DNA from: Jiangella ureilytica
Lineage (GTDB): Bacteria > Actinomycetota > Actinomycetes > Jiangellales > Jiangellaceae
Length of the DNA stretch: 32,686 nucleotides
Direction: 5' to 3'
Assembly: GCF_004348545.1 (NCBI RefSeq)
Contig: NZ_SMKL01000070.1
Span: 1-32,686 of the forward strand
Below are positions 15 to 31,998 of the stretch, piece after piece. The translations under genes and the position numbers were made by a program. The first letter of the stretch is position 1, and each line of letters starts with the position of its first letter. A model generated the notes under the pieces. That model saw nothing but the letters and a program-made list of their open reading frames with translations, had not been told where the DNA came from and did not search any database.

Positions 15-3298
<3,284 letters not shown>

Positions 3299-3299
<1 letters not shown>

Positions 3300-4444
3300 C
3301 AGGCGTTCTCCTCGCTGCTGGCGTTCGCCGTCATGACGTCGGTGAACCGGTCGAACAGGTAGGCGGCGTCGTGCGGGCCGGCCGCGGCCTCGGGGTGGTA
3401 CTGGACCGAGAAGCCCTTGAGCCGGCCGTCGCTGCCCCGCAGCGCGAGCCCCTCGACCACGTCGTCGTTGAGGCAGACATGGCTGACCTCGGCCGATCCA
3501 TAGGGCGTGCGGACGGTCTCGTGCAACGGCGCGTCGACCGCGAAGCCGTGGTTGTGCGCCGTCACCTCGACCTTGCCGGTGCCGCGGTCCTGAACCGGCT
3601 GGTTGATGCCGCGGTGGCCGTAGCCGAGCTTGTAGGTGCCGAAGCCGAGCGCGCGGCCGAACACCTGGTTGCCGAAGCAGATGCCGAAGAACGGCAGGTC
3701 GCGCTCGAGCGCCGCCTGCACGACCCGCATGGGGCCGTCGCCCGTGGCCGGGTCGCCCGGGCCGTTGGACAGGAACAGCCCGTCGGGCCGCAGGCTCACG
3801 ACGTCGTCGATGGTCGCCGTTGCCGGGAGCACGTGCACCTCGATGCCGCGCTCGGCCAGGCGCCGCGGCGTCATGGTCTTGATGCCGAGGTCGAGGGCGA
3901 CGACGGTGAACCGGCGCTCGCCGTCGGCCCGCACGACGTACGGCTCCTGCGTGCTGACCTCGGCGGCGAGGTCGGCGCCGAGCATCTCGGGGCTGTCGAG
4001 CACCCGCTGCCGCAGCGCCTCGGGGTCGATCTCGACGGTGGAGATGCCGACCCGCATGGCGCCGCGCTCGCGCAGGTGGCGGGTGAGCGCGCGGGTGTCG
4101 ATGCCGCTGATGCCGACGACGCCCTGGGCCGCGAGCTCCTCGTCGAGGCTGCGCGCGCTGCGCCACGAGGACGGCCGGCGGGCGGGGTCGCGCACCACGT
4201 AGCCGGCGACCCAGATGCGGCCGGACTCGGGGTCGTCGTCGTTGACCCCGGTGTTGCCGATGTGCGGCGCCGTCTGCACCACCACCTGGCGGTGGTAGGA
4301 CGGGTCGGTCAGCGTCTCCTGGTAGCCGGTCATGCCGGTGGAGAAGACGGCCTCGCCGAACGTCTCGCCTGCGGCGCCGTAGGAGCGGCCGCGGAAGGCC
4401 CGGCCGTCCTCGAGCACGAGCAGCGCGGGTTGGCTCGTCGTCAT
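3299..4444 (-). CDS. carA: Carbamoyl-phosphate synthase small subunit (glutaminase)
   Basis: The 381-residue glutamine amidotransferase subunit releases ammonia from glutamine for CarB. The N-terminal CarA domain ([31 protein letters not shown]) is followed by a class I amidotransferase domain. The nucleophile Cys256 lies in FFGICFGNQ, and His350 and Glu352 in VQYHPE complete the triad. The ATG at 4444 overlaps the pyrC stop by four bases (ATGA), and the stop overlaps carB. In mycobacteria a small membrane-protein gene sits between pyrC and carA (from memory); here there is none. No truncation is seen. Confidence 0.98.
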
Positions 4445-5763
4445 GTGTTCCCTCCTGCGGTTCCCCCGGTGATCTGGTGCGCCTGGTGCGTGGGCCGGCC
4501 GCGCAGGAACGTCGCGACGACGGTGCCCGGCAACTTCATGCCCTCGTACGGCGTGTTCCGCGACAGCGACGCCGACGTCGACGGATCGATGGTGGTCGTG
4601 GTGCTCGGGTCGACGAGCGCGAGGTTGGCGGGCTCGCCGACGGCGACGGGGCGCCCGTGCGGGACGCCGCCGGTGTCGCAGCGGCCGATGCGGGCCGGCG
4701 CGAACGACAGGCGGTCGGCGACCCCGGCCCAGTCGAGCAGCCCGGTGTCGACCATGGTGTGCTGCACGACCGACAGCGCGGTCTCGAGCCCGAGCATGCC
4801 GAACGCCGCGGCGTCCCACTCGCAGTCCTTGGCCTCGACCGGGTGCGGCGCGTGATCGGTGGCGACGATGTCGATGGTGCCGTCGGCCAGCGCCTCGCGC
4901 AGCGCCGCGACGTCGTCGGCGGTACGCAGCGGCGGGTTGACCTTGTAGCGCGGGTCGTAGCCGGCCACCAGCTCGTCGGTGAGCAGCAGGTGGTGCGGCG
5001 TGACCTCGGCCGTCACCGGCAGCCCGCGCTCCTTGGCCAGCCGGACGATCTCGACCGAGCCCTTCGTCGAGAGATGGCAGATGTGGACCCGCGAGCCGAC
5101 GTGCGCGGCCAGCAGCACGTCGCGGGCGACGATGGCCTCTTCGGCGACGCTCGGCCAGCCGCGCAGCCCGAGCCGGCCGGAGAGCTCGCCCTCGTTCATC
5201 TGGGCGCCTTCGGTGAGCCGCGGCTCCTGCGCGTGCTGGGCGATGACGCCGTCGAACGCCTTGACGTACTCGAGCGCGCGGCGCATCAGCTGGGCGTCGT
5301 GGACGCAGAGGCCGTCGTCGGAGAAGACCCGCACCCCGGCGGCGGACTCGGCCATGGCGCCGAGCTCGGCCAGCCGCTCCCCCTTCAACCCGACGGTGAC
5401 GGCGCCGACCGGGCGGACGTCGGCGTGCCCGGCCTCGCGCCCGAGCCGCCACACCTGCTCGACGACGCCGGCGGTGTCGGCGACGGGGTCGGTGTTGGCC
5501 ATGGCGTGGACGGCGGTGAACCCGCCCCGGGCCGCCGCCAGGGTGCCCGTCTCGACGGTCTCGGCGTCCTCGCGCCCGGGCTCGCGCAGGTGGGTGTGCA
5601 GGTCGACCAGGCCGGGCAGCGCGATCAGTCCGGCGGCGTCGATCGTCGTCGCGCCGTCCTTGCCCAACCCGGCACCCAGACCGGCGATGACGCCGTCGTC
5701 GATGAGGATGTCCTGCGGGTCGCCGCCGAGGACGCGCGCGTTCTGGATCAGGATCGGGGTCAC
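4441..5763 (-). CDS. pyrC: Dihydroorotase
   Basis: The 440-residue amidohydrolase catalyses reversible cyclisation of N-carbamoyl-aspartate to dihydroorotate, the third pyrimidine step. Zinc-site motifs are visible in order: [10 protein letters not shown] (the HxH pair), [17 protein letters not shown], and DHAPH near the C-terminus. The type I hallmark FSDDG is present. The GTG start at 5763 is chosen because it overlaps the pyrB stop as GTGA, the same arrangement as other junctions in this operon, and the protein then begins with the standard [11 protein letters not shown] strand. The TGA stop overlaps the carA start. Confidence 0.97.
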
Positions 5764-6698
5764 GCTTCCTCCGTCGTGTTCGTGCCCGCCAGCATCAGAT
5801 AGAGGACCGCCATGCGCACGTAGACGCCGTTCGTCACCTGCTCGACGATGACCGAGCGGGCGCTGTCGGCGACCTCGGCGGTGATCTCCATGCCGCGGTT
5901 CATGGGGCCGGGGTGCAGGACCAGCGCCTCGGGCGGCATGAGCGACTGCCGGCGGGAGTCGAGGCCGTAGCGCCGGCTGTACTCGCGCGCAGACGGGAAG
6001 AACGCGGCGCTCATGCGCTCGCTCTGGACGCGCAGCATCATGACGGCGTCGGCGCCGGCCAGGGCGTCGTCGAGGTCGTAGCTGACGCCGCACGGCCAGT
6101 GGTCGACGCCCTTGGGCAGCAGTGTCGGCGGCGCGACCAGCGTGACTTTCGCGCCGAGCGTCGCCAGCAGCAGGACGTTGCTGCGGGCCACCCGGCTGTG
6201 CAGCACGTCGCCGACGATGACGATGCGCTTGCCGGCCAGCTCGCCCAGGTGGCGGCGCATGGTGAACGCGTCGAGCAGCGCCTGGGTCGGGTGCTCGTGG
6301 GTGCCGTCGCCGGCGTTGACCACGCAGGCGTTGATCCAGCCCGACGTGGCCAGCCGGTACGGCGCGCCACTCGCGGAGTGCCGCACGACGACGCCGTCGG
6401 CGCCCATGGCCTCGAGCGTCAGCGCGGTGTCCTTGAGGCTCTCGCCCTTGGACAGGCTGGACCCCTTGGCCGAGAAGTTCACGACGTCGGCCGACAGCCG
6501 CTTCGCCGCGAGCTCGAAGGAGGTGCGGGTGCGGGTGGAGTCCTCGAAGAAGAGGTTGACCACCGTGCGCCCGCGCAGGGTCGGCAGCTTCTTGACGGCG
6601 CGGCCCTCGGTGAGCCGGGCCATCTCGTCCGCGGTGTCGAGCACCAGCGTGGCGTCGTCGAGTGAGAGGTCGCCGGCGGAGAGCAGGTGACGGATCAC
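5760..6698 (-). CDS. pyrB: Aspartate carbamoyltransferase catalytic subunit
   Basis: The 312-residue enzyme joins carbamoyl phosphate and aspartate to give carbamoyl-aspartate, the committed pyrimidine step. The carbamoyl-phosphate loop [13 protein letters not shown] is near residue 50, the second-subunit loop ([12 protein letters not shown]) follows, and [10 protein letters not shown] and [11 protein letters not shown] mark the substrate sites. No regulatory pyrI gene is present, as usual outside enterobacteria, so control is probably through PyrR. The GTG start overlaps the pyrR stop by four bases (GTGA). It competes for carbamoyl phosphate made by the carAB genes of the same operon. Confidence 0.97.
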
Positions 6699-7294
6699 GG
6701 TTGCACCTCGCTTGCGGCCGTCTCGGCGGGTTCGCGCTGCTCGCGGGCGGGCTTGTCGAGGAGGACGCCGTCGTGACCGTCGGACTCGGTGAGCCGGACC
6801 TTCACGCTCTCGGCGAGGCTGGTCGGGATGTTCTTGCCGACGTGGTCGGCGCGGATGGGCAGTTGTCGGTGGCCGCGGTCGACGAGGACGACCAGGCGGA
6901 CGGCGCGCGGCCGCCCGATGTCCTCGAGCGCCGTCAGCGCCGCCCGGATGGTGCGCCCCGAGAACAGCACGTCGTCGACCAGCACCACGATGCGGTCGTC
7001 GACTCCGCCGGGCGGGATCTCGGTGTGCTCGAGGGCCCGGGCCGGCCGCAACCGCAGATCGTCGCGGTACATGGTGACGTCGAGCGCCCCGACGGGGACC
7101 TCGATGCCCTCGACCGCGGAGATGCGCTGGGCCAGCCGATGCGCGAGCGGGACGCCGCGCTTGGGGATGCCGAGGAGGACGAGGTCGGTGGCGCCCTTGT
7201 TGCGCTCCACCACCTCGTGGGCGATACGCGTGAGAGCCCGGGCGACGTCGTCGCCGTCGAGCACCTCGCGCGCGCCGGTCAGGTCGCGAGACAT
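6695..7294 (-). CDS. pyrR: Bifunctional pyr operon RNA-binding regulator / uracil phosphoribosyltransferase
   Basis: The 199-residue protein has the type I phosphoribosyltransferase fold, with the PRPP loop [18 protein letters not shown] in the middle and [12 protein letters not shown] near the N-terminus. PyrR proteins bind a conserved pyr mRNA hairpin when charged with UMP/UTP and many also make UMP from uracil. I prefer the ATG at 7294 because GGAGG at 7306-7310 lies 11 bases upstream; the in-frame TTG at 7303 is only 2 bases from that GGAGG. The gene leads the operon and its own leader carries the target hairpin, which implies autoregulation. The C-terminal tail (after about residue 175) is longer and more charged than in Bacillus PyrR. 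Confidence 0.95.
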
Positions 7295-7313
7295 GCTTCG
7301 CAAGACCTCCTTC

Positions 7314-9212: not shown

Positions 9213-9305
9213 GATCAACGGTCCTTCGGAGATGAGGAGATCCCTACAGCGGTACTGACACCGCCGGGCCCCGGATCGGAACGGTCGCTGTGCGACGATT
9301 CCGGC

Positions 9306-10352
9306 GTGACGTCCCCGCTCCTCGACCGCGCCCGGGCCGGTGACCACGACGCGTTCGCGGAGCTCGTCGACCCGTACCGCCGCGAGCTGCAGCTGCACTG
9401 CTACCGGCTGCTCGGCCGGCTCGCCGACGCCGAGGACGCGGTGCAGGAGACGCTGCTGGCGGCCTGGCGCGGCCTGCCGGAGTTCGAGGGCCGGGCGTCG
9501 GTGCGCAGCTGGCTGTATCGCATCGCGACGCGCCGCTGCCTCAACGCCGTCCGCGACGCCGGCCGGCGCCCGCCCCTGGCGCCCACGCCGCCGTTCGAGG
9601 CCCCGGAGCCGACCCGGCACAACGAGGTCCCGTGGGTCCAGCCGTACCCCGACGTCCTGCTGCCGGAGCCCGCCTACCTGCACCGCGAGCGGGTCGAGCT
9701 GGCCTTCGTCGAGGCGCTGGCCACGTTGCCGCCGCGGCAGACCGCCGCCCTCGTGGTGTGCGACGTCCTCGGCTTCCCGCTCACGGAGGCGGCGGCCGTG
9801 CTCGACACGACGGCGGCAGCGGTCAAGGGGGCGTTGCAGCGGGCCCGCTCGACCCTCCGCTCGACGGCGACGGCGACGGCGCCGGCGACGGCGCCGGCGG
9901 CCAGCCGGCCGCCGGCGCACGGCTCGGCCGAGGAGCGCCGCCTCGGCAAGCAGTTCGCCACCGCGTTCGTCGCCGACGACGTCGACGCCGTCATCGCGCT
10001 GCTCACCGACGACGCCTGGCTGGCCATGCCACCGGCTCCGCACCAGTACGCCGGCCCGGCGGCCATCGCCGGCTTCCTCCGCGCCAGCGCGGCGTGGCGG
10101 GCCGGCCGGCGGTACTCGCTGCTTCCGACCAGGGCCAACGCCCAGCCCGGGTTCGGCTGCTACCTCGGCGGCGCGCCCGCCGGCCTCGTCGTCCTCACCC
10201 TCGACGGCGACCGGATCGCCCGCATCACCCGCTTCATGGACGACTCCCTGTTCCCCGCGTTCGGCCTGCCCAGGACGTTCAGCCGATCCCCCGCATCTGC
10301 AGCACCTTCAGCGCAAGAGCAAGATCCAGACGCAGCTCCGGGTCGGTGGTGA
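9306..10352 (+). CDS. ECF sigma factor with C-terminal SnoaL-like domain
   Basis: The 348-residue protein has sigma region 2 near the N-terminus (FAELVDPYRRELQLHCYRLL, DAEDAVQETLLAAWRGL), region 4 around residues 135-185 (LPPRQTAALVVCDVLGFPLTEAA, VKGALQRARS), an Ala/Thr/Pro linker, and an NTF2/SnoaL-like tail (FVADDVDAVIALLTDDAWLAMPP, ITRFMD). This matches the ECF group with fused SnoaL domains (mycobacterial SigG/SigJ-like); the tail is thought to modulate activity instead of a separate anti-sigma factor. The GTG start is chosen from the conserved N-terminus. The 3' end runs 74 bases into the convergent pucR-like gene, and the last 20 residues look like non-conserved extension. Confidence 0.9.
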   Translation: MTSPLLDRARAGDHDAFAELVDPYRRELQLHCYRLLGRLADAEDAVQETLLAAWRGLPEFEGRASVRSWLYRIATRRCLNAVRDAGRRPPLAPTPPFEAPEPTRHNEVPWVQPYPDVLLPEPAYLHRERVELAFVEALATLPPRQTAALVVCDVLGFPLTEAAAVLDTTAAAVKGALQRARSTLRSTATATAPATAPAASRPPAHGSAEERRLGKQFATAFVADDVDAVIALLTDDAWLAMPPAPHQYAGPAAIAGFLRASAAWRAGRRYSLLPTRANAQPGFGCYLGGAPAGLVVLTLDGDRIARITRFMDDSLFPAFGLPRTFSRSPASAAPSAQEQDPDAAPGRW

Positions 10353-11991
10353 ACGGGCCGAGGATGCGCTCGAGCTTGCTGATGCGGTACCGCAGCGTGT
10401 TGTAGTGGAAGTGCAGCTGGCGGGCCGCCTCGGCGACGTTCAGATTCGTGTCGAGCAGCACCTTCAGCGTGTGGCGCAGGTCCTCCATCTCGGGGTCGTC
10501 CTCGGCGGCGAGGCCGTGCAGGGTCTCGCGGACGAAGCCGCGCAGTTCCTCGCGGTCCTCGATCTGGCTGAGCAGACGGAACGAGCCGAGGCTGTCGAAA
10601 TGGGCCAGCGACCCGCGGCCGTTCATCTGCCGTCCCACGTCGACGGCGCGGCGGGCCTGCTCGTAGCCGACCGGCAGCCGCGCGGGGTCGTCGACGACGC
10701 GGCTGACGCCGGTGGAGAAGGACCGCCGGCCGCCACCGCCGTCGCCGGCGACCTGCCGGACCGCCTCGCGCACCGCCGACTCCGGGTCCAGCCGCGAGCC
10801 GACCGGCAGCAGCGCGACCACCTCTTGTGCGAAGCCGACGACGGCGGCACGAGGGTCACGCCGTCCCACCACCGTCTGCCAGGCCACGGTGAACCTCTCC
10901 TGGACGGGACGCAGCTGCGGGCCGGGCGGCCCGGCCGGCCCGCTCTCGGGGTCGAGCTCGGCCACCACGACGACGAGGTCGCGGCCGACGTCCCAGCCGA
11001 GCGACTCGCAGTGCGCCACGATGCGGTCGCGGTCGCCGGCCCGCCCGACCAGGACGTCGCGGAGGAAGTCGCCGCGGTACTTGCTCTCGACGGCGGTGAC
11101 GGCGAGCTGCTTGTTCACGGCCAGCGCGGCGACGGTGGCGGCCCGCTCCAGCACGTTGACATCGGCGTCGTCGAGGGCGCGGTGCCGGGCGAACGCGACG
11201 ATGCGCCCGTGGTCGACCCGCCCGGCCACGATCGACACGACGGCGTGCCGGCCGGGCACGTCGACGTGCGAGTGGACGCCGCCGGGCTCGTACTCCGTGC
11301 GGAACCGGCCGGACGTGTCGAAGCACGGCGTGTGCCGCCACGAGGCGAGGTCGTCGACGTTGCCGCCCTCGGCGAGGATGCGCCCGTCCGCCGTCGTCAC
11401 CATGATCGGCACGCCCAGCACGGCAGACGTCTTCGTGACCAGCTCGGTCAGCCCGCCGCCGTCGAGCACGACCGACAGCAGCGCGTGGTGCACCTCCCAC
11501 GACCGCTCCAGCGCCGCGGCCTGCTTGTTCAGCACGCCGGTGAGCACCTGGTTGAGGATGTCGTCGAACCCGACGGCGTCGGGCAGGAGCAGCAGCGGCA
11601 GGCCCAGCCGGTCGGCCTCGTCGATCATCTCGTCGGGCAGCGCGTCGAGATAGCGGTGCAGCTTGACGCCCAGCGCGGCCAGCCCGCGCGCATCGAGCTC
11701 GGCGACCAGGCCCGGCAGGCCCTGTGGTGTGTTGCGCAGCGGATAGCCCGTGGTGAGCAGCAGCTCGTTCGGCTTGACCCATGGCAGGATGTCCGGGACC
11801 TCCATGATGTTGGCCCGCTGGACGACGCGGTCGAGCCCGTTCTCGCCCGCCAGCAGCCGCGCGCCGGTCAGCGCGGGGATCTCCATCGCCTTGCGCACGG
11901 TCAGCCCGGGCACCGCGCGGGTCGGCCATTTGCCGCCGCCGGCTGGCAACTCCGGCGAACCCGGGGCCCGATCGTTGGCAAGTTTGCCCAT
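10279..11991 (-). CDS. PucR/CdaR-family transcriptional regulator
   Basis: The 570-residue protein begins with a PucR N-terminal ligand domain (VRKAMEIPALTGARLLAGENGLDRVV, VPDILPWVKPNELLLTTGYPL), continues with a GAF/GGDEF-like middle, and ends in the PucR helix-turn-helix (LLDTNLNVAEAARQLHFHYNTL, then RYRISKLERILG). Family members sense purine- or ureide-related metabolites and control nitrogen salvage genes. It is divergent from the allH-allF-allG-like operon with a 77-base gap, so it is the likely regulator of that operon. ATG 11991 is taken as start, but the initiation site is uncertain because no clear Shine-Dalgarno is seen. Confidence 0.9.
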   Translation of the reverse strand: MGKLANDRAPGSPELPAGGGKWPTRAVPGLTVRKAMEIPALTGARLLAGENGLDRVVQRANIMEVPDILPWVKPNELLLTTGYPLRNTPQGLPGLVAELDARGLAALGVKLHRYLDALPDEMIDEADRLGLPLLLLPDAVGFDDILNQVLTGVLNKQAAALERSWEVHHALLSVVLDGGGLTELVTKTSAVLGVPIMVTTADGRILAEGGNVDDLASWRHTPCFDTSGRFRTEYEPGGVHSHVDVPGRHAVVSIVAGRVDHGRIVAFARHRALDDADVNVLERAATVAALAVNKQLAVTAVESKYRGDFLRDVLVGRAGDRDRIVAHCESLGWDVGRDLVVVVAELDPESGPAGPPGPQLRPVQERFTVAWQTVVGRRDPRAAVVGFAQEVVALLPVGSRLDPESAVREAVRQVAGDGGGGRRSFSTGVSRVVDDPARLPVGYEQARRAVDVGRQMNGRGSLAHFDSLGSFRLLSQIEDREELRGFVRETLHGLAAEDDPEMEDLRHTLKVLLDTNLNVAEAARQLHFHYNTLRYRISKLERILGPFTTDPELRLDLALALKVLQMRGIG

Positions 11992-12068
11992 GCGATGACG
12001 GTATCGGTCCCGGCTACGTTCGTGGCAGTCCCAGTTCAGGTGATCTTGGGCGGAAACGGAGGTCGCGA

Positions 12069-12938
12069 GTGCCGGTACCGACGGTTCCGACCGGGGTCCG
12101 GGCCGCCCGGCCGTGGCCGGGTGACGTGTCTCGGCAGGTCCTGCCGGGCGCCGCGAGCACCGTCGTCGCCGCTCTCGTCGGGGGTCCACGGCTCACCGGG
12201 GAGGTCGTGGCCGCCACCCGAACACTGACCGCCGTCCTGGTCGACCACGGCACCGGGCCGGTGCTCCTGTGCGTCACCGGCCCGGCTGCCGTGCGCCTGC
12301 CGTGCGCCGTCGTCACCCCGTGGCCGCTGTCCGGGCTGCGGGCCGGCCAGCGGGCGGTGGTCGGCGACGGCGAGCTGCGCATCGGCGACTCCGCGGCCGA
12401 CGGCGTCGTCGTCACGGCCGCGCGGTGGTGGCGGGTGCGCCCGGCCGCGATCGGCGACGTCGCGCTCGCGCGGACCCGGACCGCGGGGCTCGCCGACGGA
12501 GCCGGGCTCGACGGCGGCGTCGTGGCGGCGGCCGGACGGCTCGGGCTCGGGCTGCTCTGCGGCGACGACGAGGAGCTCGCCGACGCCGTCGACGGCCTGC
12601 TCGGTCTCGGGCCCGGATTGACGCCCGCCGGCGACGACGTGCTGGCCGGCGCGCTGGTCGTCGCGGCCGCGCTGGGCCGGGCCGCCCGGCTGGCGTCCGT
12701 CGTCGGGGCGGCCGTCCCGTTCGACCGCACGACCGCCGTCTCCGCCGGGCTCCTCCCCCACGCCGCCCACGGCCTCGCCGTCCCGCAGCTCGCCGCGTAC
12801 CTGGCCGCGCTCGGCGCCGCCCGCGGCGACGTCGAGGCCGCCGAGCAGCGGCTGCTCGCCGTCGGCCACACCTCCGGCGCCGCGCTCCGGCTGGGCGCCG
12901 TCGTCGCACTGGCCGCGCTGGCCGGCGGGCCGCGGTGA
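12069..12938 (+). CDS. DUF2877 protein, AllH (YlbF)-like oxamate carbamoyltransferase subunit
   Basis: The 289-residue protein carries the DUF2877 signature LLGLGPGLTPAGDDVLAGALV near residue 180 and the later LLPHAAHGLAVPQ. In E. coli the DUF2877 protein YlbF was renamed AllH and, with AllF and AllG, forms the oxamate carbamoyltransferase of allantoin degradation. The GTG start has an ideal GGAGG six bases upstream (12058-12062). The stop overlaps the next GTG by four bases. The gene order H-F-G differs from E. coli, where fdrA comes first. Function is inferred from the family and the complete three-gene set. Confidence 0.85.
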   Translation: MPVPTVPTGVRAARPWPGDVSRQVLPGAASTVVAALVGGPRLTGEVVAATRTLTAVLVDHGTGPVLLCVTGPAAVRLPCAVVTPWPLSGLRAGQRAVVGDGELRIGDSAADGVVVTAARWWRVRPAAIGDVALARTRTAGLADGAGLDGGVVAAAGRLGLGLLCGDDEELADAVDGLLGLGPGLTPAGDDVLAGALVVAAALGRAARLASVVGAAVPFDRTTAVSAGLLPHAAHGLAVPQLAAYLAALGAARGDVEAAEQRLLAVGHTSGAALRLGAVVALAALAGGPR

Positions 12939-14431
12939 TCCGCCACGTCGAGGTGCGCACCGGCACCTACCACGACTCCGTCACGTTGATGCAGGTCAGC
13001 CAGGCGGTACAGGGCGAGGACGGGGTCGGGTCGGCGCTCGTCGCCATGGCCACCCAGCTCAACCTCGACCTTCTCGCCGGCATGGGCTTCGACCCGCCGG
13101 CCGCGAGCCCGAACGACCTGGTCGTCGGGGTGGTCGCCGACGACGACGGCGCGCTCGGCCGGGCACTGGGCCGGCTCGAGTCGGCGCTGGCGGCGCGGGG
13201 CCCCGGTGGGTCCGGCGACGGCGGCGGGTTCGACGCCGCGCCGCCGCGGTCGGTCGGCGCGGCCGCCCGGCGCGACGGCGCCACCATCGCGTTCGTCTCG
13301 ACGCCCGGCGCGTACGCGTTCGTCGACGCGATGGACGCGCTGCAGCACGGCCTGCACGTCGTCGTGTTCTCCGACAACGTCCCCGTCGAGCAGGAGATCC
13401 GGCTCAAGCAGGAGGCCGCCGACCGCGGGCTGCTGGTCATGGGACCCGACTGCGGCACGGCGGTGGTCGGCGGCGTCGGGTTCGGGTTCGCCAACGTGGT
13501 GCGGCCGGGGCCGGTCGGCGTCGTCGCGGCGTCCGGCACCGGCGCCCAGCAGCTGCTCGGCCTGGTCGACGGCGCGGGGGTCGGCATCAGCCACTGCCTC
13601 GGGGTCGGCGGGCGCGACCTGACGGCCGAGGTGGGCGGCGCGTCGACGCTGGCCGCGCTCGACCTGCTGGCCGACGACGACGCGACCGAGGTCATCGTCG
13701 TCGTCAGCAAGCCGCCCGCGGCCGACGTCGCCGACACCGTCCGCGAGCGGGCCGAGAAGCTCGGCAAGCCCGTCGTCCTCGCGCTGCTCGGCCCCGGCCG
13801 GCCCGACCTCACTGCCGTCGCCGAGACCGTCGTCACCACCGCCGGCGCCACCTGGGCGCCGCCGCGGTCGTGGCCGTCGACGGCGCCGCGCACCGGCCCG
13901 TACCCGTTCGTGCGCGGCCTCTACGCCGGCGGGACCCTCTGTGACGAGGCGATGCTGCTGGTCAGCGCGGCGTTCGGCCCGGTGCGGTCGAACATCCCGC
14001 TGGCGTCGGCGTGGGCGCTCGGGCCGGACCTGCAGGCCGAGGGACACACGATGATCGACTTCGGCGACGACTCCCTGACCCAGGGCCGGCCGCACCCCAT
14101 GATCGACAACTCGCTGCGCATCGAGCGGCTGCTCACCGAGGCGCGCGACCCGACCTGCGGCGTCGTGCTCCTCGACGTCGTGCTCGGGCACGGCGCGCAC
14201 CCCGACCCGGCCGGCGAGCTGGCCCCGGCCATCGTCCGGGCCCGCAACGTCGCCGGGGCGCGCGGCCGCGACCTCGCCGTCGTCGTCGCGCTGATCGGCA
14301 CCGACACGGACCCGCAGCGGCTCGACGACCAGGCCCGGGCGCTGCGCGACGCCGGCGCCTCGGTGCAGTTGTCCAACGCCGCGGCGGCCCGCGAGGCCGT
14401 CGCGCTGGTCCGGGACGGCGCCGATGGCTGA
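12935..14431 (+). CDS. fdrA: FdrA-family protein, AllF-like oxamate carbamoyltransferase subunit
   Basis: The 498-residue protein resembles the succinyl-CoA-synthetase-alpha-like FdrA family. Visible motifs include the N-terminal GTYHDSVTLMQVSQ, the stretch VVFSDNVPVEQEIRLKQEA, the glycine-rich LVMGPDCGTAVVGGVGFGFANVV and VAASGTGAQQLLGLVDGAGVG with HCLGVGGRDL. It starts at GTG 12935, overlapping the DUF2877 stop (GTGA), and its stop overlaps the next ATG by eight bases. It is somewhat shorter than E. coli FdrA (about 555 residues). A Gly/Ala-rich insert around residues 80-105 looks poorly conserved. Confidence 0.9.
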   Translation: MIRHVEVRTGTYHDSVTLMQVSQAVQGEDGVGSALVAMATQLNLDLLAGMGFDPPAASPNDLVVGVVADDDGALGRALGRLESALAARGPGGSGDGGGFDAAPPRSVGAAARRDGATIAFVSTPGAYAFVDAMDALQHGLHVVVFSDNVPVEQEIRLKQEAADRGLLVMGPDCGTAVVGGVGFGFANVVRPGPVGVVAASGTGAQQLLGLVDGAGVGISHCLGVGGRDLTAEVGGASTLAALDLLADDDATEVIVVVSKPPAADVADTVRERAEKLGKPVVLALLGPGRPDLTAVAETVVTTAGATWAPPRSWPSTAPRTGPYPFVRGLYAGGTLCDEAMLLVSAAFGPVRSNIPLASAWALGPDLQAEGHTMIDFGDDSLTQGRPHPMIDNSLRIERLLTEARDPTCGVVLLDVVLGHGAHPDPAGELAPAIVRARNVAGARGRDLAVVVALIGTDTDPQRLDDQARALRDAGASVQLSNAAAAREAVALVRDGADG

Positions 14432-15839
14432 CCTGCTGAACGACGAGCCGCGCGTGGTCAGCGCCGGGGTCGACCTGTTCGCGGCCGCGCTGGCGGCGCA
14501 GGCGGTGCCGGTGACGACGGTCGACTGGCGCCCGCCTGTGGCCGGCACGTCGGACGACCTGGCCCGTGTGCTGGCCGACCCGCGGCGGCCGGAGGCGAAC
14601 GCGCTCGCGCTGTCGCGCATGCTCGAGGCGGGCGCCGACCTCGTCGACGTCCGGCCGGCTTCCGAGGTGCTCGGCCTGGAGCCGGGCCAGTTCCTGCACG
14701 CCGGCCCGCCGGTCACGTGGGATCGGGCGTCCGGGCCGCTGCGCGGTGCGCTGATCGGGGCGACTCTGTTCGAGGGCCTGGCTACCTCGCCGGGTGAGGC
14801 GGAAGCACTGCTGGCGGCGGGTTCGGGCTCGTCGGTCGAGTGGTCGCCGTGCCACGACCGCGGGGGCGTCGGTCCCATGGCCGGGGTCGTGTCGCCGTCG
14901 ATGTGGCTGTTCGAGCTCGCCGATCCTGTGGGCGGCCGGACGGCGTGGTGCTCGCTCAACGAGGGCCTCGGCGCGGTGCTGCGTTACGGCGCGTACGGCC
15001 CGGAGGTCATCGAGCGGCTGCGGTGGATGGCGTCGGCGCTGGGGCCGCTGCTGCAGGCCGCCGTGCGGCGGCGCGGGCCCGTGGACGTCAAGGCGATCGT
15101 CGCGCAGATGGTCCAGATGGGCGACGAGGGCCACAACCGCAACCGCGCCGGCACGCTGATGCTGCTGCGCGACCTGCTCCCGGCTCTCGTCGACAGCGGA
15201 GCGCCGTCGTCGGACGTCGCCGCGGCCGCCGCCTTCATCGGCGGCAACGACCACTTCTTCCTCAACCTGGTCATGCCGGCCGGGAAGCTCCAGACGGCGG
15301 CCGCGGCCGGAATCGCCGGCTGCTCCGTCGTCACGGCCATGGCCCGCAACGGCACCGACTTCGGCATCCAGGTGTCGGGGACGGGCTCGGCCTGGTTCAC
15401 CGCACCCGCCAACACGCCATCGGGGCTGTATCTGGGGGCGTTCGGGCCCGACGACGCGAACCCCGACATCGGCGACTCCGCGATCACCGAGACCATCGGT
15501 CTCGGCGGGTTCGCCATGGCCGCCGCCCCCGCCATCGTCCGGTTCGTCGGCGGCTCGGTGCCCGACGCGCTGGCGACCAGCCGGCTGATGTACGAGATCA
15601 CCGTCGGCGAGAATCCGGCGTACGCGTTCCCGATCCTCGAGTTCCGCGGTGCCCCGACGGGCATCGACGTCACGCTGGTGGCGCGGACCGGTGTGCTGCC
15701 GCAGATCAACACCGGGATCGCCGGCCGGGTCGCCGGGACGGGCCAGGTCGGCGCCGGCCTGGTCCAGCCGCCGATGGACTGCTTCACCGCCGCACTCTCC
15801 GCGTTGGCCGCCGCCGTCCCGCCGCCCGCCTCGGAATGA
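14424..15839 (+). CDS. DUF1116 protein, AllG (YlbE)-like oxamate carbamoyltransferase subunit
   Basis: The 471-residue protein has the DUF1116 hallmarks: VTTVDWRPP near residue 32, QMGDEGHNRNRAGTLMLLRDL in the middle, AAFIGGNDHFFLNLVMPAGK, and ARNGTDFGIQVSGTG. In E. coli the family member YlbE (AllG) is the third component of the enzyme that splits oxalurate into oxamate and carbamoyl phosphate. Translation is probably coupled to fdrA (ATG lies inside the fdrA end). Length is slightly above the E. coli protein. The stop codon is embedded in a repeat element shared with the convergent gene. Confidence 0.87.
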   Translation: MADLLNDEPRVVSAGVDLFAAALAAQAVPVTTVDWRPPVAGTSDDLARVLADPRRPEANALALSRMLEAGADLVDVRPASEVLGLEPGQFLHAGPPVTWDRASGPLRGALIGATLFEGLATSPGEAEALLAAGSGSSVEWSPCHDRGGVGPMAGVVSPSMWLFELADPVGGRTAWCSLNEGLGAVLRYGAYGPEVIERLRWMASALGPLLQAAVRRRGPVDVKAIVAQMVQMGDEGHNRNRAGTLMLLRDLLPALVDSGAPSSDVAAAAAFIGGNDHFFLNLVMPAGKLQTAAAAGIAGCSVVTAMARNGTDFGIQVSGTGSAWFTAPANTPSGLYLGAFGPDDANPDIGDSAITETIGLGGFAMAAAPAIVRFVGGSVPDALATSRLMYEITVGENPAYAFPILEFRGAPTGIDVTLVARTGVLPQINTGIAGRVAGTGQVGAGLVQPPMDCFTAALSALAAAVPPPASE

Positions 15840-16007: not shown

Positions 16008-16041
16008 GGGAATCAGGTGGTGAACGTCATTCCGAGGCGGG
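15976..16041 (-). repeat. Short terminator-bearing repeat, copy B (inverted)
   Basis: Read on the minus strand, it holds CCCGCCTCGGAATGA, CGTTCACCACC, TCCCTGC and then a hairpin, in the same order as copy A. The first block contains the last three codons and stop of the nucleotidyltransferase gene, so both convergent proteins end in Pro-Ala-Ser-Glu. Confidence 0.75.
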
Positions 16042-16605
16042 GAGATCGGCGGGGGTGTCGACGTCGGCGGGGAGGCCGGTGCCGGTGCAGTCGACGGGGG
16101 TGACGAGTTCGGGGTGGGCCCGCATGAAAGGGCGGGCGCCCACATCGCCCTCGGCCAGGGCCGCGACCTCGTCCCAGACGTGCCGCGACAGCAGCACCGG
16201 GTTGCCACGGCGGCCGTCGTAGGTCGCCACCGCGACGGACACCTCGCCGTCCGAAGACGACCACGCCGACCGCAGCCGCCGGACCGCCTCCACCCCGACC
16301 CAGGGCTGGTCGACCAGCGCGACCACGACGGCGCCGGCAGCCGACGCCGTCAGCGCCCGCAGTCCGGCCCGCAGCGACGACCCCATGCCACTGGCCCAGC
16401 CGGGGTTGTGCACGACGATCGCGCCCGGCACCGTCAGCGACACCGCGCCGGACACCACGACCACCGGGTCGCACCCGCCGTCGGACACCAGCCGCGCCGC
16501 CCGGTCGACCAGCCGCGATCCCTCGTACTCGACCAGGGCCTTGGGCGAGCCGTAGCGAGAGCCCGATCCTGCCGCGAGGACCAGGCCCGCGACGTCAGAG
16601 GACAT
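16027..16605 (-). CDS. MobA/MocA-like molybdenum cofactor nucleotidyltransferase
   Basis: The 192-residue protein has the MobA-like NTP transferase pattern: LVLAAGSGSRYGSPKALVEYEG at the N-terminus, the metal-binding VVALVDQPW, then RRGNPVLLSRHVW, GDVGARPF and DVDTPADL at the C-terminus. MocA enzymes cytidylate molybdopterin for xanthine dehydrogenase and CO dehydrogenase-type enzymes. It overlaps the xdhC-like gene by 11 bases and is the last gene of this maturation cluster. The start is ambiguous: ATG 16605 is chosen, but GTG 16623 in the same frame is possible and neither has a clear Shine-Dalgarno. Confidence 0.87.
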   Translation of the reverse strand: MSSDVAGLVLAAGSGSRYGSPKALVEYEGSRLVDRAARLVSDGGCDPVVVVSGAVSLTVPGAIVVHNPGWASGMGSSLRAGLRALTASAAGAVVVALVDQPWVGVEAVRRLRSAWSSSDGEVSVAVATYDGRRGNPVLLSRHVWDEVAALAEGDVGARPFMRAHPELVTPVDCTGTGLPADVDTPADLPASE

Positions 16606-17713
16606 CCGACGCGAGCGGTTCACGGTGGATCGGCCCGCTGGTGTCGCGCAGCCGGCGGCCCGAGCCGCCCCAGCGCGACGCGATGATCTCGGCGGCGATG
16701 GAGACCGCCGTCTCCTCGGGTGTGCGGGCGCCGATGTCGAGGCCCAGCGGCGACGCCAGCCGGGCGAGGTCCTCCTCGGCGACCCCCTCGGCGCGCAGCC
16801 GCGCGAGCCGGTCGTCGTGCGTGCGCCGCGACCCCATGACCCCGATGTACGCGGCCGGCGTGCGGACGGCCTCGGCCAGCAGCGGCACGTCGAACTTGGG
16901 GTCGTGGGTGAGCACGCAGATGACCGTCCGCGCGTCCACCGCCGTCGAGGCCAGGTAATCGTGCGGCCACTTGACCACCACCTCGTCGGCGTCGGGGAAG
17001 CGCCGCGGCGTCGCGAAGACCGGCCTGGCGTCGCACACCGTCACGTGGTAGCCGAGGAACCGGCCGACCCGCACCAGGGCCGCGGCGAAGTCGATGGCGC
17101 CGAAGACCAGCATGCGCGGCCGCGGCGCGAACGACTGTACGAACACCTGCAGATCGTCGAGCCGCCGCTCCCCCGAAGCGCCGTAGCGCCGGATCCCCGT
17201 CATCCCCTGCTCGAGCAGGCCGCGGGCGTCGTCGGCGACGGCGTCGTCGAGTCGCTGGCCACCCAGCGACCCCGCGACCCGGTCGGGCCAGACGATCAGG
17301 TGCGCGCCGACGGTTCCGGGCCCGGCGACGACGGTGGCAACGGCGACCGGCTCGGCGGCGTCGACACTGGCCGCGACGTCGACCAGCGCCGGGAAGGTCT
17401 GGCGGTCGACCGCCTCGACGAACACGTCGATGACGCCGCCGCAGGTCAGCCCGACCGCGAACGCGTCGTCGTCGCTGACGCCGTAGCGCTGCAGGACCGG
17501 CGCGCGGCCGGCCATGACCTCCTGCGCGAGCTCGTACACCGCACCCTCGATGCAGCCCCCGGAGACGCTGCCGACCGCCTCGCCGGCCTGGGTGACGGCC
17601 ATCGAGGCGCCGGGCGGTCGGGGCGCGGACTCGAACGTGCTGACGACGGTGACCAGGCCGGCCCGCTCGCCCGCGCCGACGGCGGCCACCAGCTCACGCA
17701 TGACCTCCTGCAC
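16595..17713 (-). CDS. xdhC: XdhC/CoxI-family molybdenum hydroxylase maturation protein
   Basis: The 372-residue protein has the N-terminal XdhC domain (GLVTVVSTFESAPRPPGASMAV, then SVSGGCIEGAVYELA, where the SGGC cysteine is the conserved one) and the C-terminal Rossmann-like XdhC domain (MLVFGAIDFAAALVRVGRFL, VTVCDARPVF, LTHDPKFDVPLLAEA, YIGVMGSRRTHDDRL). XdhC binds molybdenum cofactor, helps its sulfuration and delivers it to xanthine dehydrogenase-type enzymes. Several GTG/ATG starts are possible; GTG 17713 has GGGAGG five bases upstream, while GTG 17719 and ATG 17701 have no properly spaced site. The start lies inside the end of the VWA gene. Confidence 0.93.
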   Translation of the reverse strand: MQEVMRELVAAVGAGERAGLVTVVSTFESAPRPPGASMAVTQAGEAVGSVSGGCIEGAVYELAQEVMAGRAPVLQRYGVSDDDAFAVGLTCGGVIDVFVEAVDRQTFPALVDVAASVDAAEPVAVATVVAGPGTVGAHLIVWPDRVAGSLGGQRLDDAVADDARGLLEQGMTGIRRYGASGERRLDDLQVFVQSFAPRPRMLVFGAIDFAAALVRVGRFLGYHVTVCDARPVFATPRRFPDADEVVVKWPHDYLASTAVDARTVICVLTHDPKFDVPLLAEAVRTPAAYIGVMGSRRTHDDRLARLRAEGVAEEDLARLASPLGLDIGARTPEETAVSIAAEIIASRWGGSGRRLRDTSGPIHREPLASDVL

Positions 17714-18851
17714 GGTCACCTCCCTTCCCGGACGAGTCGAGCCGTCCGTCGAGCAGCCCGGCCAGCTCGTGCATGGCTCCCAGCGAGTGCCCGGCGACCA
17801 GCCGGTCGACGTACGGAAGCGCCGCCCGCATGCCACCCGTACTGGGAATGTATCCAATATATCCTCGGTGCGGATTCACCCACACGATACGCCTGGCCAG
17901 CCGCGACAGCCGACCCATCTGCGTCGCGAGCTGCTCCGTCCCGCCGCGTTCCCAGCCGTCGCTGCCGATGACGACGACGGCGCCGCGAGCCGTGCCGCGC
18001 TGACCCCAGCGGTCGAGGAACTCCTTCAGCTCGTCGCCCAGCCGGGTGCCGCCGCTCCAGTCATCGATGACCGCCGATGCCGCTGCCAGCGCCGCCGCGG
18101 GCTCGCGCCGCCGCAGCTCACGGGTGATGCGAGTGAGCCGCGTGCCGACGGTGAACACCTCGGTCCCGGGGCGCACGCGGCAGGCGGCGTGGGCGAAGCG
18201 GAGCAACGTCTCGGCGTACGCCGCCATGGATCCACTGACGTCGATGAGGAAGACCAGCCTGCGCTGCCGCCGTCCGTGCCGATGCCTGCGCAGCTCGACC
18301 GGCTCGCCGCCGTGGCGCAGCATGCTCCGGACGGTGCGGCGGGCGTCGACGGGTCCCGACGGCGACGGCTTCAGCCGGCGGGTGGTGCGGTCGGGTGCCG
18401 CCGGGAGCAGTGCGCTGACGTAGCGGTGCACCTCGGCACGGTCGGCGGCGCTGAGCGTGGCGACGTCGCGGTGACGGAGCACCTCGATGCGGTTCGCAGT
18501 GGCGATGCGCTGCTCAGGGGCGTCGGGCGGGTCGCCGTCGCGGCCGCCCGGGTCGTCGGGCTCGGCCGGGACCGCGACGAGCCGCTGCACCGGCGTGACG
18601 GCGACGCGGTTCGGCGGGCTGGCCGGGTGGCCGCCGAAGTAGGCCGCGAACACCCGGTCGTAGGCCGCGACGTCCTCGGGCGAGCCGCACAGCGTCGTCC
18701 GGCCGGCCCAGTACACCGGCCGCAGCCCGGCCGCGCCGAGGACGTCGAGCGCCTCGATCATGGCGTGCACCCGAGTCGGCGGGACGTCGACGCCGGCCGC
18801 GGCCAGCCGCCGGGCGAACCCGACCACCTCGACGTCGATGTGACGAGTCAC
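17694..18851 (-). CDS. CoxE-type von Willebrand factor A domain protein
   Basis: The 385-residue protein has an N-terminal helical part (FARRLAAAGVDVPPTRVHAMIEAL), a basic linker, and a C-terminal VWA domain with the MIDAS motif DVSGS at residues 204-208, a threonine in GGTRLGDEL and an aspartate in IGSDGWERGG. CoxE works with the MoxR-type ATPase CoxD in assembling the Mo/Cu centre of CO dehydrogenase and relatives. The GTG start has no strong Shine-Dalgarno. The stop overlaps the xdhC-like start by 20 bases. Confidence 0.9.
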   Translation of the reverse strand: MTRHIDVEVVGFARRLAAAGVDVPPTRVHAMIEALDVLGAAGLRPVYWAGRTTLCGSPEDVAAYDRVFAAYFGGHPASPPNRVAVTPVQRLVAVPAEPDDPGGRDGDPPDAPEQRIATANRIEVLRHRDVATLSAADRAEVHRYVSALLPAAPDRTTRRLKPSPSGPVDARRTVRSMLRHGGEPVELRRHRHGRRQRRLVFLIDVSGSMAAYAETLLRFAHAACRVRPGTEVFTVGTRLTRITRELRRREPAAALAAASAVIDDWSGGTRLGDELKEFLDRWGQRGTARGAVVVIGSDGWERGGTEQLATQMGRLSRLARRIVWVNPHRGYIGYIPSTGGMRAALPYVDRLVAGHSLGAMHELAGLLDGRLDSSGKGGDRAGGHA

Positions 18852-18984: not shown

Positions 18985-19869
18985 TCATGGGCGGCCGACC
19001 AGCTCCGCGACCTCGCTGGTCATGCGCTCGGTGTCTTCCTGGTACTTGAGCACGGCGCCGAAGGTCCGGGTGGCGAGGTCGGCCGACAGCTCCGTCGCAC
19101 CGAGCGCCGCGAGCGCCGTGACCCAGTCGATCGACTCCGCCAGTCCCGGCGGCTTCAGCAGGCCGGCCGCGCGCAGCCGCTGGACCGCGCGGGCGACGTC
19201 GTCGGCCAGCCGCTCGCTGACGCCCGGCAGGTGCCGCCGGATGACCGCGACCTCGCGCTCGAACGTCGGGTGCGCCAGCCAGTGGTACAGGCAGCGCCGC
19301 TTGAGCGCGTCGTGCACCTCGCGGGTGCGGTTGCTGGTCACGACGACGACCGGCGGCGTCTCGGCGCGGACGGTGCCGAGCTCGGGGATCGAGATGGTGA
19401 ACTCGGACAGCACCTCGAGCAGGAACGCCTCGAACTCGTCGTCGGCGCGGTCGATCTCGTCGACCAGCAGCACCGACGGCGTCGTCTCGAGCGCCCGCAG
19501 CAGCGGGCGGGCCAGCAGGAACCGGCGGTCGTACAGCTCGTGCTCGAGCCGCTCGACGTCGGTGACGCCGGCGGCCTCGGCGGCGCGCAGGTGTAGCAGC
19601 TGGCGCGGGAAGTCCCAGTCGTACAGCGCCTGAGCGGCGTCGACGCCCTCATAGCACTGCAGCCGGATCAGCGGCGCCTCGAGCACGTCGGCGAGCGCCT
19701 GCGCGAGGGCGGTCTTGCCGACCCCGGCCTCGCCCTCGAGGAACAGCGGCCGGCCCATGCGCAACGCCAGGAACGCGGCCGTCGCGACCCCCTCGTCGGC
19801 CAGATACCCTGCGGCGTCCAGCCGCTGGGCCAGCTCGCCGGGCGTCGTGGCCCCCTCGGTGTCGACCAT
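18985..19869 (-). CDS. MoxR-family (CoxD-like) AAA+ ATPase
   Basis: The 294-residue AAA+ protein has Walker A GEAGVGKT at residues 46-53, Walker B VLLVDEID around 133-140, sensor-1 VVVTSN followed by the arginine-rich NRTREVHDALKRRCLYHW, and a C-terminal lid. The phrase LIRLQCYEGVDAAQALYDWD is typical of CoxD-like MoxR proteins. It is the first gene of the minus-strand maturation cluster, 133 bases upstream of the VWA gene, and probably acts with it as a chaperone pair. Confidence 0.93.
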   Translation of the reverse strand: MVDTEGATTPGELAQRLDAAGYLADEGVATAAFLALRMGRPLFLEGEAGVGKTALAQALADVLEAPLIRLQCYEGVDAAQALYDWDFPRQLLHLRAAEAAGVTDVERLEHELYDRRFLLARPLLRALETTPSVLLVDEIDRADDEFEAFLLEVLSEFTISIPELGTVRAETPPVVVVTSNRTREVHDALKRRCLYHWLAHPTFEREVAVIRRHLPGVSERLADDVARAVQRLRAAGLLKPPGLAESIDWVTALAALGATELSADLATRTFGAVLKYQEDTERMTSEVAELVGRP

Positions 19870-29030: not shown

Positions 29031-29834
29031 CTAGTGTGCCGGGTCTTGGGTTCTGATGCTGGGCAGGGTGTCGATGCCGCGGTTGCGTAGCCGGTAGCTG
29101 GCGCCCTTCAGGGTGAGGACGTCGGCGTGGTGGACGATGCGATCGATCATTGCGGCGGCGACGGCCTGGTCCCCGAAGACGCCACCCCAGCCGCTGAACG
29201 GCAGGTTGCTGGTCAGGATCAGTGAGGCGTGTTCGTAGCGGCTGGACACGAGCTGGAAGAACAGGTTCGCGGCGTCTTGCTCGAAGGGCAGGTAGCCGAC
29301 CTCGTCGACGATGATCAACCCGTAGCGACGCGGCCGCGCTAGTTCCTGCGGTAGCCGGCCGGCGCGGTGGGCCTCGGTGAGTCGGGTGACCCACTCGGTC
29401 GCGGTCGCGAACAGCACCCGATGTCCGTGGTTCGCGGCCGCGATGCCCAGTCCGGTGGCAAGGTGGGTCTTGCCGGTGCCGGGCGGGCCGAGCAGCACGA
29501 CGTTGCGTGCCTTGGTCAGGAACCCACCCGATGCGAGTGCGGCGATCTGCTGCCGGATGGCCGGCTGGGCGTCCCAGTCGAACTCCTCGATCGTCTTGCG
29601 GGCGGCGAATCCGGCGGCCCGGATCCGCAGCTGGGCGCCCGACGCGTTCCTGGCGGCGACCTCACGGTCCAGCACCGCGGCGAGGTACTCCTCATGGGTC
29701 CAGCCGGCATCGCGGGCGTGGTCGGCCAGCCTCGCTGCGGACTCGGTGATCCGTGGTGCCTTCAATGCCGACGCCAGGTAGGTGACCTGCTTGAGCGCCT
29801 CGGCCGCGTCGCTCTTCGACTTCGTGGTCGCCAT
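29031..29834 (-). CDS. istB: IS21-family transposition helper ATPase IstB
   Basis: The 267-residue AAA+ protein has Walker A GPPGTGKT at residues 116-123, Walker B YGLIIVDEVGYLPF around residue 177, and sensor motif SLILTSNLPFSGW. The N-terminal helices (ESAARLADHARDAGWTHEEY) and the IDRIVHHADVLTLKGASYRL end are typical of IstB. It assists IstA by choosing and remodelling target DNA. The start shares one base with the istA stop (TGATG). The stop lies 14 bases inside the left terminal repeat boundary. Confidence 0.95.
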   Translation of the reverse strand: MATTKSKSDAAEALKQVTYLASALKAPRITESAARLADHARDAGWTHEEYLAAVLDREVAARNASGAQLRIRAAGFAARKTIEEFDWDAQPAIRQQIAALASGGFLTKARNVVLLGPPGTGKTHLATGLGIAAANHGHRVLFATATEWVTRLTEAHRAGRLPQELARPRRYGLIIVDEVGYLPFEQDAANLFFQLVSSRYEHASLILTSNLPFSGWGGVFGDQAVAAAMIDRIVHHADVLTLKGASYRLRNRGIDTLPSIRTQDPAH

Positions 29835-31159: not shown

Positions 31160-31253
31160 ACCAGGAGAGCACCCTAGTGTTGGTGGGAGTTGACACCACC
31201 CTGGCGGGCGCGCAAGCGGAGCGAGTCCGAGCCGATTGAGCGGAGGTGGGCGC

Positions 31254-31847
31254 ATGTCGGCGACGAAGCTCCTGGTACTCGGTATCGTGCACCTCTCCGG
31301 CGGCGCGCATGGCTACCAGGTGCGGTCCGAACTGCAGAGCTGGGGTGCGGAGATTTGGGCCAAGATCAAGCCCGGCTCGATTTATCACGCGCTGAAAAAG
31401 GCGGCGGCTGATGGCCTCCTCACCGAACACGCCGAGCCGGGCAACTCCGGGCCGGAGCGCGTTCTGTACCGCGCGACAGCTCGGGGACGTGACGAGATAG
31501 TCGAACTGGTCCGCGACGGTCTGCGGCGCACCCATGACCCGGCCATGCTCGACGCGGCCATCGCCATGTTGCCCATGCTGACCAGGACAGATGCCATCGC
31601 GCACGTTAACGAGCGGGTCGCGCGCCTGGAAGCGGAGCTCGTAGGGCAGGCCAAGGGGTGGGAGAACCCGAACCCCGACATTCCCGAACACGTCCGCGAT
31701 CAGGCCGAACTGTGGGCGGGACACGCACGCACCGAACTGGAGTGGGCGAAGAACCTGAGCAAACGACTGTCTGAGGGCGCCTACACCATGGCCGATGATC
31801 CGGGTTCGTGGCGAACGGTCCACGATCCCCTCAAGATGCGCTTCTAA
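31254..31847 (+). CDS. PadR-family transcriptional regulator, copy 1
   Basis: The 197-residue protein has the PadR winged helix (KLLVLGIVHLSGGAHGYQVR, KPGSIYHALKKAAADGLLTE, RVLYRATARGRDEI) and a C-terminal helical dimerisation domain rich in Ala, Glu and Leu (residues about 105-175). GGAGG lies seven bases before ATG 31254. It follows the IS21 right end by only 95 bases, so the IS may have separated it from its original upstream neighbour. PadR repressors normally control an adjacent transporter gene and themselves. The protein is identical to copy 2. Confidence 0.93.
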   Translation: MSATKLLVLGIVHLSGGAHGYQVRSELQSWGAEIWAKIKPGSIYHALKKAAADGLLTEHAEPGNSGPERVLYRATARGRDEIVELVRDGLRRTHDPAMLDAAIAMLPMLTRTDAIAHVNERVARLEAELVGQAKGWENPNPDIPEHVRDQAELWAGHARTELEWAKNLSKRLSEGAYTMADDPGSWRTVHDPLKMRF

Positions 31848-31883: not shown

Positions 31884-31890
31884 GGCCAGG

Positions 31891-31980: not shown

Positions 31981-31998
31981 TTGAGCGGAGGTGGGCGT

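Follow-up and report, generated by a model that had tools for sequence, protein, structure and literature searches.

The closest characterized relative of the system considered here is the oxamate carbamoyltransferase of Escherichia coli, for which Kim and Kim (2024) purified the AllF, AllG and AllH proteins and reported oxamate carbamoyltransferase activity with a KM for oxamate of 36.9 mM (PMC11326118). We analyzed a 32,686-nucleotide stretch of Jiangella ureilytica DNA (hereafter the window), which is an entire contig (NZ_SMKL01000070.1; our label C136) of a genome of 6.35 Mb in 168 contigs, and found that homologs of AllF, AllG and AllH all occur together there in one operon, allHFG, next to a divergent gene for a PucR-family regulator (10279-15839 for the whole set). 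As in the E. coli allFGHK operon, the three subunit families share one operon and the genome also holds a carbamate kinase; unlike it, the Jiangella system has an AllG of a separate clade, a kinase that lies with a barbiturase on another contig, the gene order H-F-G, a PucR regulator and no AllD above cut-off. We consider it likely that AllHFG serves oxidative pyrimidine (barbiturate) catabolism, where it would split ureidomalonate, the substrate to which its genomic context points, with phosphate, the kinase then making ATP.

Several other described systems share parts of this gene set. Rhodococcus erythropolis breaks down pyrimidines oxidatively, by a route that PMC3758960 calls rare, with a barbiturase of the same signature group (PMC3758960, PMC4051656, PMC3961730); the published last step is a hydrolysis to malonate and urea, in contrast to the phosphorolytic carbamoyl transfer and carbamate kinase reaction proposed here. 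In comammox bacteria and ammonia-oxidizing archaea, the allFGHK genes are described in PMC12625717 as placing AllFGH and carbamate kinase beside ureide-hydrolyzing genes, without upstream purine genes; their partners are biuret-type cysteine hydrolases (biuret/triuret), whereas those found here are a barbiturase, a molybdenum hydroxylase and a nucleobase permease. Plasmid clusters of Aminobacter sp. SR38 and Klebsiella quasipneumoniae likewise combine, in a single run, AllF and AllG with carbamate kinase and an AtzD-family ring opener, but the latter carries RTRGG, the signature of cyanuric acid hydrolases, and the DUF2877 gene is about 9 kb away. A literature search, with most subscription papers beyond its reach, returned no paper linking barbiturase with carbamate kinase, FdrA, oxamic transcarbamylase or DUF1116; barbiturase appears in the reference lists of PMC3961730 and PMC7662398.

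Barbiturase, carbamate kinase and AllG

On contig C111, a full-length carbamate kinase gene (arcC; C111:40482-41399), scoring 322.2 bits against NF009007 (over the cut-off of 266) and 322.9 bits against TIGR00746 (below the cut-off of 358), directly precedes the gene for a protein of the AtzD/TrzD/barbiturase family (PF09663, 1.4e-143). The original prediction, a reading of the window's sequence that preceded this work, described the operon as being without carbamate kinase; this stands for the window, with none among its scanned open reading frames (ORFs) and none on C136 by whole-genome search, and fails for the genome. The C111 ring opener matches the solved barbiturase 5hwe with 658 bits and six other solved family members (five of them named cyanuric acid amidohydrolases, the sixth a ring-opening amidohydrolase) with at most 328. 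According to PMC3758960, five positions (Asn195, His321, Lys325, Val345 and Ser/Ala346 in AtzD numbering) split barbiturases (N, H, K, V, S/A) from cyanuric acid hydrolases (R, T, R, G, G). The C111 protein has the signature NHKVS (N195/H321/K325/V345/S346), which places it in the barbiturase group, and judged by these residues and scores it is a barbiturase; its assignment as a cyanuric acid hydrolase was ruled out on the same two grounds.

In a class-wide sample of 296 genomes, each with a completeness of 90% or more, we found AllG in 72 and PF09663 in 69. Residue signatures, read in all 69, identify 64 genomes with the barbiturase type (63 with NHKV[S/A], one with NYKVS) and five with other AtzD types only (RTRGG or N-KGG). 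AllG is present in 63 of the 64 barbiturase-type genomes as against none of the five with other types, and barbiturase in one of the 224 genomes without AllG. This near-perfect co-occurrence (63/9/1/223 for both, AllG only, barbiturase only and neither) corresponds to an odds ratio of 1561 and a Fisher p of 2.6e-53, although p-values of this kind are not independent counts and overstate the number of independent events because the genomes share ancestry. It persists outside the window's own family (43/9/1/223), and the two genes are found together in 12 families of the sample, with AllG lacking barbiturase in four others. Control pairings associate weakly: AllG with uricase gives 40/32/91/133 (odds ratio 1.83, p 0.019) and AllG with any AllD-like match gives 18/54/37/187 (odds ratio 1.68, p 0.078; 0.79 outside the own family), and AllD above its own cut-off is found in none of the 296 genomes. 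Among the 63 genomes with both genes, these lie on one contig in 41 and within 50 kb in 34, and on separate contigs in 22, including this draft. The kinase gene arcC lies directly upstream of the barbiturase gene, on the same strand, in 56 of the 64 barbiturase genomes. In G017 (L081/L082), the barbiturase gene is broken into two adjacent matches that lie in different frames, either through a sequencing error or because the gene has decayed.

The AllG phylogeny is congruent with this association. In a tree of 66 rows, which covers 53 of the 63 genomes that have both genes, the AllG proteins of 52 of the 53 tested barbiturase genomes, that of the window included, form one clade with support of 100/99. 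The chromosomal and plasmid AllG proteins of E. coli, those of the Aminobacter plasmid and Peptoclostridium, and eight rows from genomes without barbiturase all fall outside it. A first tree, which contained one very long-branched extra row (L177), supported 49 rows at 95/81 and required two changes for the barbiturase group owing to L180 (from genome G063); the second tree drops L177 and adds three genomes, and L180 is still outside. A second AllG copy in G076 also belongs to a distant group. The nearest named relatives of the window's AllG are from Jiangella species (91% identity to J. rhizosphaerae). On L200, a 4.2-kb contig of a metagenome-assembled genome named Spirochaetaceae, there is an AllG 74% identical to that of the window; this is probably a mis-binned actinobacterial contig.

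A shared gene cluster and its split form in Jiangella

In relatives, a single cluster combines allHFG and pucR with genes for a nucleobase permease, a three-subunit molybdenum hydroxylase, an amidase or nitrilase, HyuAB, carbamate kinase and barbiturase. We reconstructed nine such intervals by gene calls and tblastn in six families (two from the own family, three from f22 and one each from f35, f26, f15 and f28). The genes coxM, coxS, coxL, coxG, hyuA, hyuB and bar (the barbiturase gene) are present in all nine, and an NCS2 permease (at least 500 bits) and arcC in eight each. An amidase is found in three and a nitrilase-family enzyme in five, never both, and the G046 interval has neither. The same holds for 80 loci from named genomes, many of them from the same species as genomes of the class sample, in which an amidase occurs 13 times, a nitrilase six times and both together not once; such mutual exclusion is as expected of two stand-ins for a single amide-hydrolyzing step. 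Among the 63 named loci that extend 8 kb or more upstream of allG, coxM, coxS and coxL are present in 57, and 55 of these have the permease too. In Pimelobacter simplex ATCC 6946 (L252), one locus carries the permease, coxMSL and amidase genes together with allFG.

The draft genome of J. ureilytica holds the same genes in separate pieces. Contig C155 has the run permease-coxM-coxS-coxL-coxG-nitrilase-hyuA plus most of hyuB, whose final 130 residues are encoded at the end of C111 on the strand that also carries arcC and the barbiturase gene; no sequence overlap joining the C155 and C111 ends was found. A congener (L300) has hyuA, hyuB, arcC and bar on a single contig and strand, and in each of six other Jiangella genomes the permease, coxMSL, coxG, nitrilase and hyuAB genes are together. 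Because hyuB spans the two contig ends and shares a contig and strand with arcC and bar in the congener, the complete set is present here in two places, the window operon and an operon running from the permease to barbiturase. Pfam domains were confirmed for this genome's permease, CoxM, CoxS, CoxL, CoxG, nitrilase and HyuA, and for the HyuB, amidase and NmrA-like protein of relatives. A conserved housekeeping order, with a pyr...fmt block between the two halves, was ruled out as a cause of their proximity by gene calls that place catabolic genes there. On C111, a gene for a family III CoA-transferase (PF02515; L024:11007-12191, minus strand) lies between hyuB and arcC, with similar-looking ORFs, judged by eye, at the corresponding place in G020 and G291; this protein could be a candidate malonate activator.

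A short promoter element also connects the two halves. The 11-bp word TCAGGTGATCT occurs at 12036-12046 (plus strand), in the pucR-allH gap, as the sole exact match in the window, and once on C155, about 116 bp before the nucleobase permease gene that heads the barbiturase operon; a search of 70 kb from elsewhere in this genome gave no occurrence. All nine tested Jiangella genomes with the split arrangement have it exactly in the pucR-allH gap, and before the permease it is exact in five of six other Jiangella and has one mismatch in the sixth. It is absent from both tested Jiangella in which the permease is next to pucR, and outside the genus its matches do not exceed the shuffled-sequence expectation. 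That both promoters carry the word in Jiangella of the split type hints at joint regulation of the two halves, with PucR as the candidate protein binding it; no palindromes were found in the pucR-allH gap. On these several lines, the allHFG operon very probably belongs functionally with the barbiturase cluster.

A candidate phosphorolytic route and its rivals

In the predicted order of steps, the NCS2 permease would import uracil or a related base, which CoxMSL, matured by MobA, XdhC, CoxE and MoxR, would oxidize to barbiturate. Barbiturase would open the ring to yield ureidomalonate (HOOC-CH2-CO-NH-CO-NH2), its product being named 3-oxo-3-ureidopropionate in PMC3758960. AllHFG would then convert ureidomalonate and phosphate to malonamate and carbamoyl phosphate, carbamate kinase (ArcC) would use the latter with ADP to form ATP, CO2 and ammonia, and the amidase or nitrilase-family enzyme would cleave malonamate to ammonia and malonate. 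The uracil step is posited because a molybdenum hydroxylase and a nucleobase permease are both present and the substrate of barbiturase is known; a molybdenum-hydroxylase-type oxidase is a plausible uracil dehydrogenase. Oxalurate (HOOC-CO-NH-CO-NH2), the known AllFGH ligand, is one CH2 shorter than ureidomalonate, and phosphate would attack the bond that is also cleaved when the E. coli enzyme acts on oxalurate.

Besides the kinship of the sampled genomes, a series of observations weighs against this route. The choice of ureidomalonate as the AllHFG substrate derives from genomic context; the published step after barbiturase is hydrolytic, with ureidomalonase forming malonate and urea (PMC3758960), a role that the amidase or nitrilase of the cluster could fill. 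HyuA-HyuB has no place in the proposed scheme. The permease falls below the cut-offs for uracil permease and RutG, and all four maturation genes (mobA, xdhC, coxE and moxR) are near allG in just 11 of the 62 named-collection loci with 8 kb downstream. The C155 CoxMSL proteins have the domains of a three-subunit molybdenum hydroxylase, and CoxL (L183:10427-12817) scores 1515.7 bits, against a cut-off of 950, with the NCBIfam model for the aerobic CO dehydrogenase large subunit (NF040766). The active-site loop of form I CO dehydrogenase is AYxCSFR; this CoxL has PYRGAGR instead, and its assignment as such an enzyme was rejected with the motif not found. CoxL-type proteins of this kind may be misnamed in public annotation. 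The gene linkages also have exceptions: nine genomes have AllG without barbiturase, with arcC beside allG in five of them, and eight of the 64 barbiturases have no adjacent arcC (one of these with merely 32 upstream bases). The sole AllG found in G063, a fragmented genome, falls in a distant group. Finally, G190, examined by gene calls only, has a full-signature barbiturase (L163:8383-9960) without AllG, arcC or the cluster, and possibly uses the hydrolytic route.

An E. coli-like oxamate/oxalurate carbamoyltransferase would draw instead on allantoin, by way of ureidoglycolate and oxalurate, and yield oxamate and carbamoyl phosphate, from which the distant kinase would make ATP; the link to barbiturase would then amount to shared regulation or kinase sharing only. 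Such a function accords with homology to the sole characterized enzyme (PMC11326118), and PucR regulators are named for purine catabolism. It also accords with the gene content of the genome, in itself a further point against a barbiturate role: a purine cluster on contig C112 encodes proteins over the cut-offs for xanthine dehydrogenase, uricase, (S)-ureidoglycine aminohydrolase and allantoinase (564 bits against 358), and there are two AllD-like dehydrogenases of the Ldh_2 family. A genome search for carbamate kinase and allantoinase, which the original prediction had put forward as a check, thus finds both. The AllD-like proteins, however, reach 229 and 170 bits where NF011599 requires 356, are also under the cut-off of 496 for AllD itself, the ureidoglycolate dehydrogenase that forms oxalurate in E. 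coli, and have no counterpart above cut-off in the class sample. AllG does not track AllD-like genes, uricase is missing from 23 of the 63 genomes with AllG and barbiturase, the purine genes are in a cluster of their own away from allHFG, and the E. coli AllG is outside the barbiturase-linked clade. With the uricase and AllD tests returning weak associations, the allantoin-pathway link was set aside, and the pathway reading of the original prediction, here revised from allantoin to barbiturate, is mostly not supported; we judge an oxalurate-cleaving function in this organism to be unlikely.

The pathway might alternatively be hydrolytic, with the amidase or nitrilase acting as a ureidomalonase on the barbiturase product to release malonate and urea, and with AllHFG and the kinase handling another ureido acid of the cluster, for example one formed from a hydantoin or purine through the molybdenum hydroxylase and HyuAB. 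This would give a role to HyuA and HyuB, which are without one in all nine reconstructed clusters, and it fits both the published ureidomalonase activity (cited in PMC3758960) and the amidase or nitrilase in eight of the nine. Yet the G046 cluster has neither enzyme while carrying AllG, arcC and barbiturase, and the near-exclusive AllG-barbiturase link would be left unexplained, which leads us to hold this division of labor doubtful. Far less probable is the suggestion, also made in the original prediction, that the carbamoyl phosphate feeds a neighboring aspartate carbamoyltransferase for pyrimidine synthesis. The genes carB, carA, pyrC, pyrB and pyrR do lie at 15-7303 of the window, but the pyr/carAB operon is near allHFG in only six of the 19 relatives' loci, so that this neighborhood is not conserved, and the genome already encodes a carbamoyl phosphate synthase next to pyrB as well as a catabolic kinase tied to barbiturase; we ruled this use out on the count of loci.

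If the phosphorolytic barbiturate route is correct, oxidative uracil breakdown conserves energy in many actinobacteria, with ring cleavage giving ATP instead of urea, and the route is present in about one fifth of the class sample (going by barbiturase, 64 of 296). It would also supply candidate genes for uracil oxidation and for the step following barbiturase, add a second substrate class to the recently named AllFGH family and caution against labeling every FdrA/DUF1116/DUF2877 set an oxamate enzyme. A broader proposition, for which we see the case as evenly balanced, is that AllHFG of this clade is a ureidomalonate:phosphate carbamoyltransferase and that AllFGH is a movable unit for phosphorolysis that teams up with different ring openers, namely the barbiturase of this system, cyanuric-acid-hydrolase-type enzymes on plasmids of enterobacteria and Aminobacter, and the allantoin enzymes of E. 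coli. Aminobacter plasmid pSR8 (L057:8430-20849) and the K. quasipneumoniae plasmid (L060) carry fdrA, DUF1116, ring opener, arcC, amidohydrolase, BMP/ABC transporter and DUF2877 genes; phosphorolytic breakdown of cyanuric acid or biuret is a possible function of this run.

Organization of the window

Gene calls and Pfam searches bear out the divergent pucR and the overlapping allH-allF-allG operon of the original prediction. The regulator gene (10279-11991, minus strand) encodes 570 aa as counted from the chosen start codon (the longest ORF extends to 12189), with both the PucR N-terminal domain (PF07905, 1.3e-33) and the C-terminal helix-turn-helix (PF13556, 3.4e-19), as well as PF17853 (5e-15). 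A 77-bp gap, with start codons as called, separates it from the divergent allH (DUF2877; 12069-12938, plus strand; 289 aa; PF11392, 1.9e-20), the proposed third subunit. The latter overlaps allF (12935-14431, plus strand; 498 aa) by 4 bp, which codes for an FdrA protein resembling CoA ligases (PF00549, 1.2e-35) that matches the solved E. coli FdrA structure 3dmy at 4.7e-71 and scores 419.8 bits against NCBIfam NF004760, slightly below its cut-off of 433. An overlap of 8 bp leads from allF into allG (DUF1116; 14424-15839, plus strand; 471 aa; PF06545, 8.1e-91; solved structure 3clq, 3e-101). Identities to E. coli K-12 are 40.4% for AllF, 47.2% for AllG and 40.4% across 109 aligned residues for AllH. 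Family searches, these identities and PMC11326118 agree that the proteins are homologs of the three subunits of E. coli oxamic transcarbamylase, a family assignment that is correct and was already known; from this subunit homology, a carbamoyl-transferring complex is therefore the best first guess at what the three-family match encodes.

The prediction had also described the gene order as rearranged. It does differ from that of K-12, where F-G-H is followed by the kinase gene; nonetheless H-F-G is not unusual, because an E. coli plasmid and Peptoclostridium share the order DUF2877-fdrA-DUF1116-arcC. AllH profile matches lie upstream of AllG in 66 of the 67 named-genome loci having at least 3 kb upstream. 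Nor is the arrangement a chance one, given that 20 of the family's 22 genomes have AllG, among them all 20 that are at least 90% complete (the two without it are 75% and 81% complete). All 19 relatives' loci contain allF and allG, and 18 contain pucR and allH, the remaining locus beginning at a contig end.

Convergent with allG are four minus-strand accessory genes, which are so placed in 17 of the 19 relatives' loci. The nearest (16027-16623) encodes a MobA/MocA-like nucleotidyltransferase of molybdenum cofactor maturation (PF12804, 2.1e-36). It is followed by genes for an XdhC/CoxI-like maturation factor of molybdenum hydroxylases (16595-17719; PF13478 and PF02625; 216 bits against NF045664, below cut-off) and for two putative molybdenum hydroxylase accessory proteins, a CoxE-like VWA protein (17694-18851; PF05762, 5e-55) and a MoxR/CoxD-like AAA+ ATPase (18985-19869; PF07728 and other AAA families). 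At the other end of the set, an extracytoplasmic function (ECF) sigma-factor gene with a SnoaL-like domain (9300-10352) overlaps the 3' end of pucR tail to tail by about 74 bp (10279-10352). Close to the right contig end there is an istB/istA pair of an IS21-type element (29031-31090), and beyond it, at 31236-32592, two adjacent ORFs begin with the identical peptide LSGGGRMSATKLLVLG, such that this stretch looks partly duplicated.

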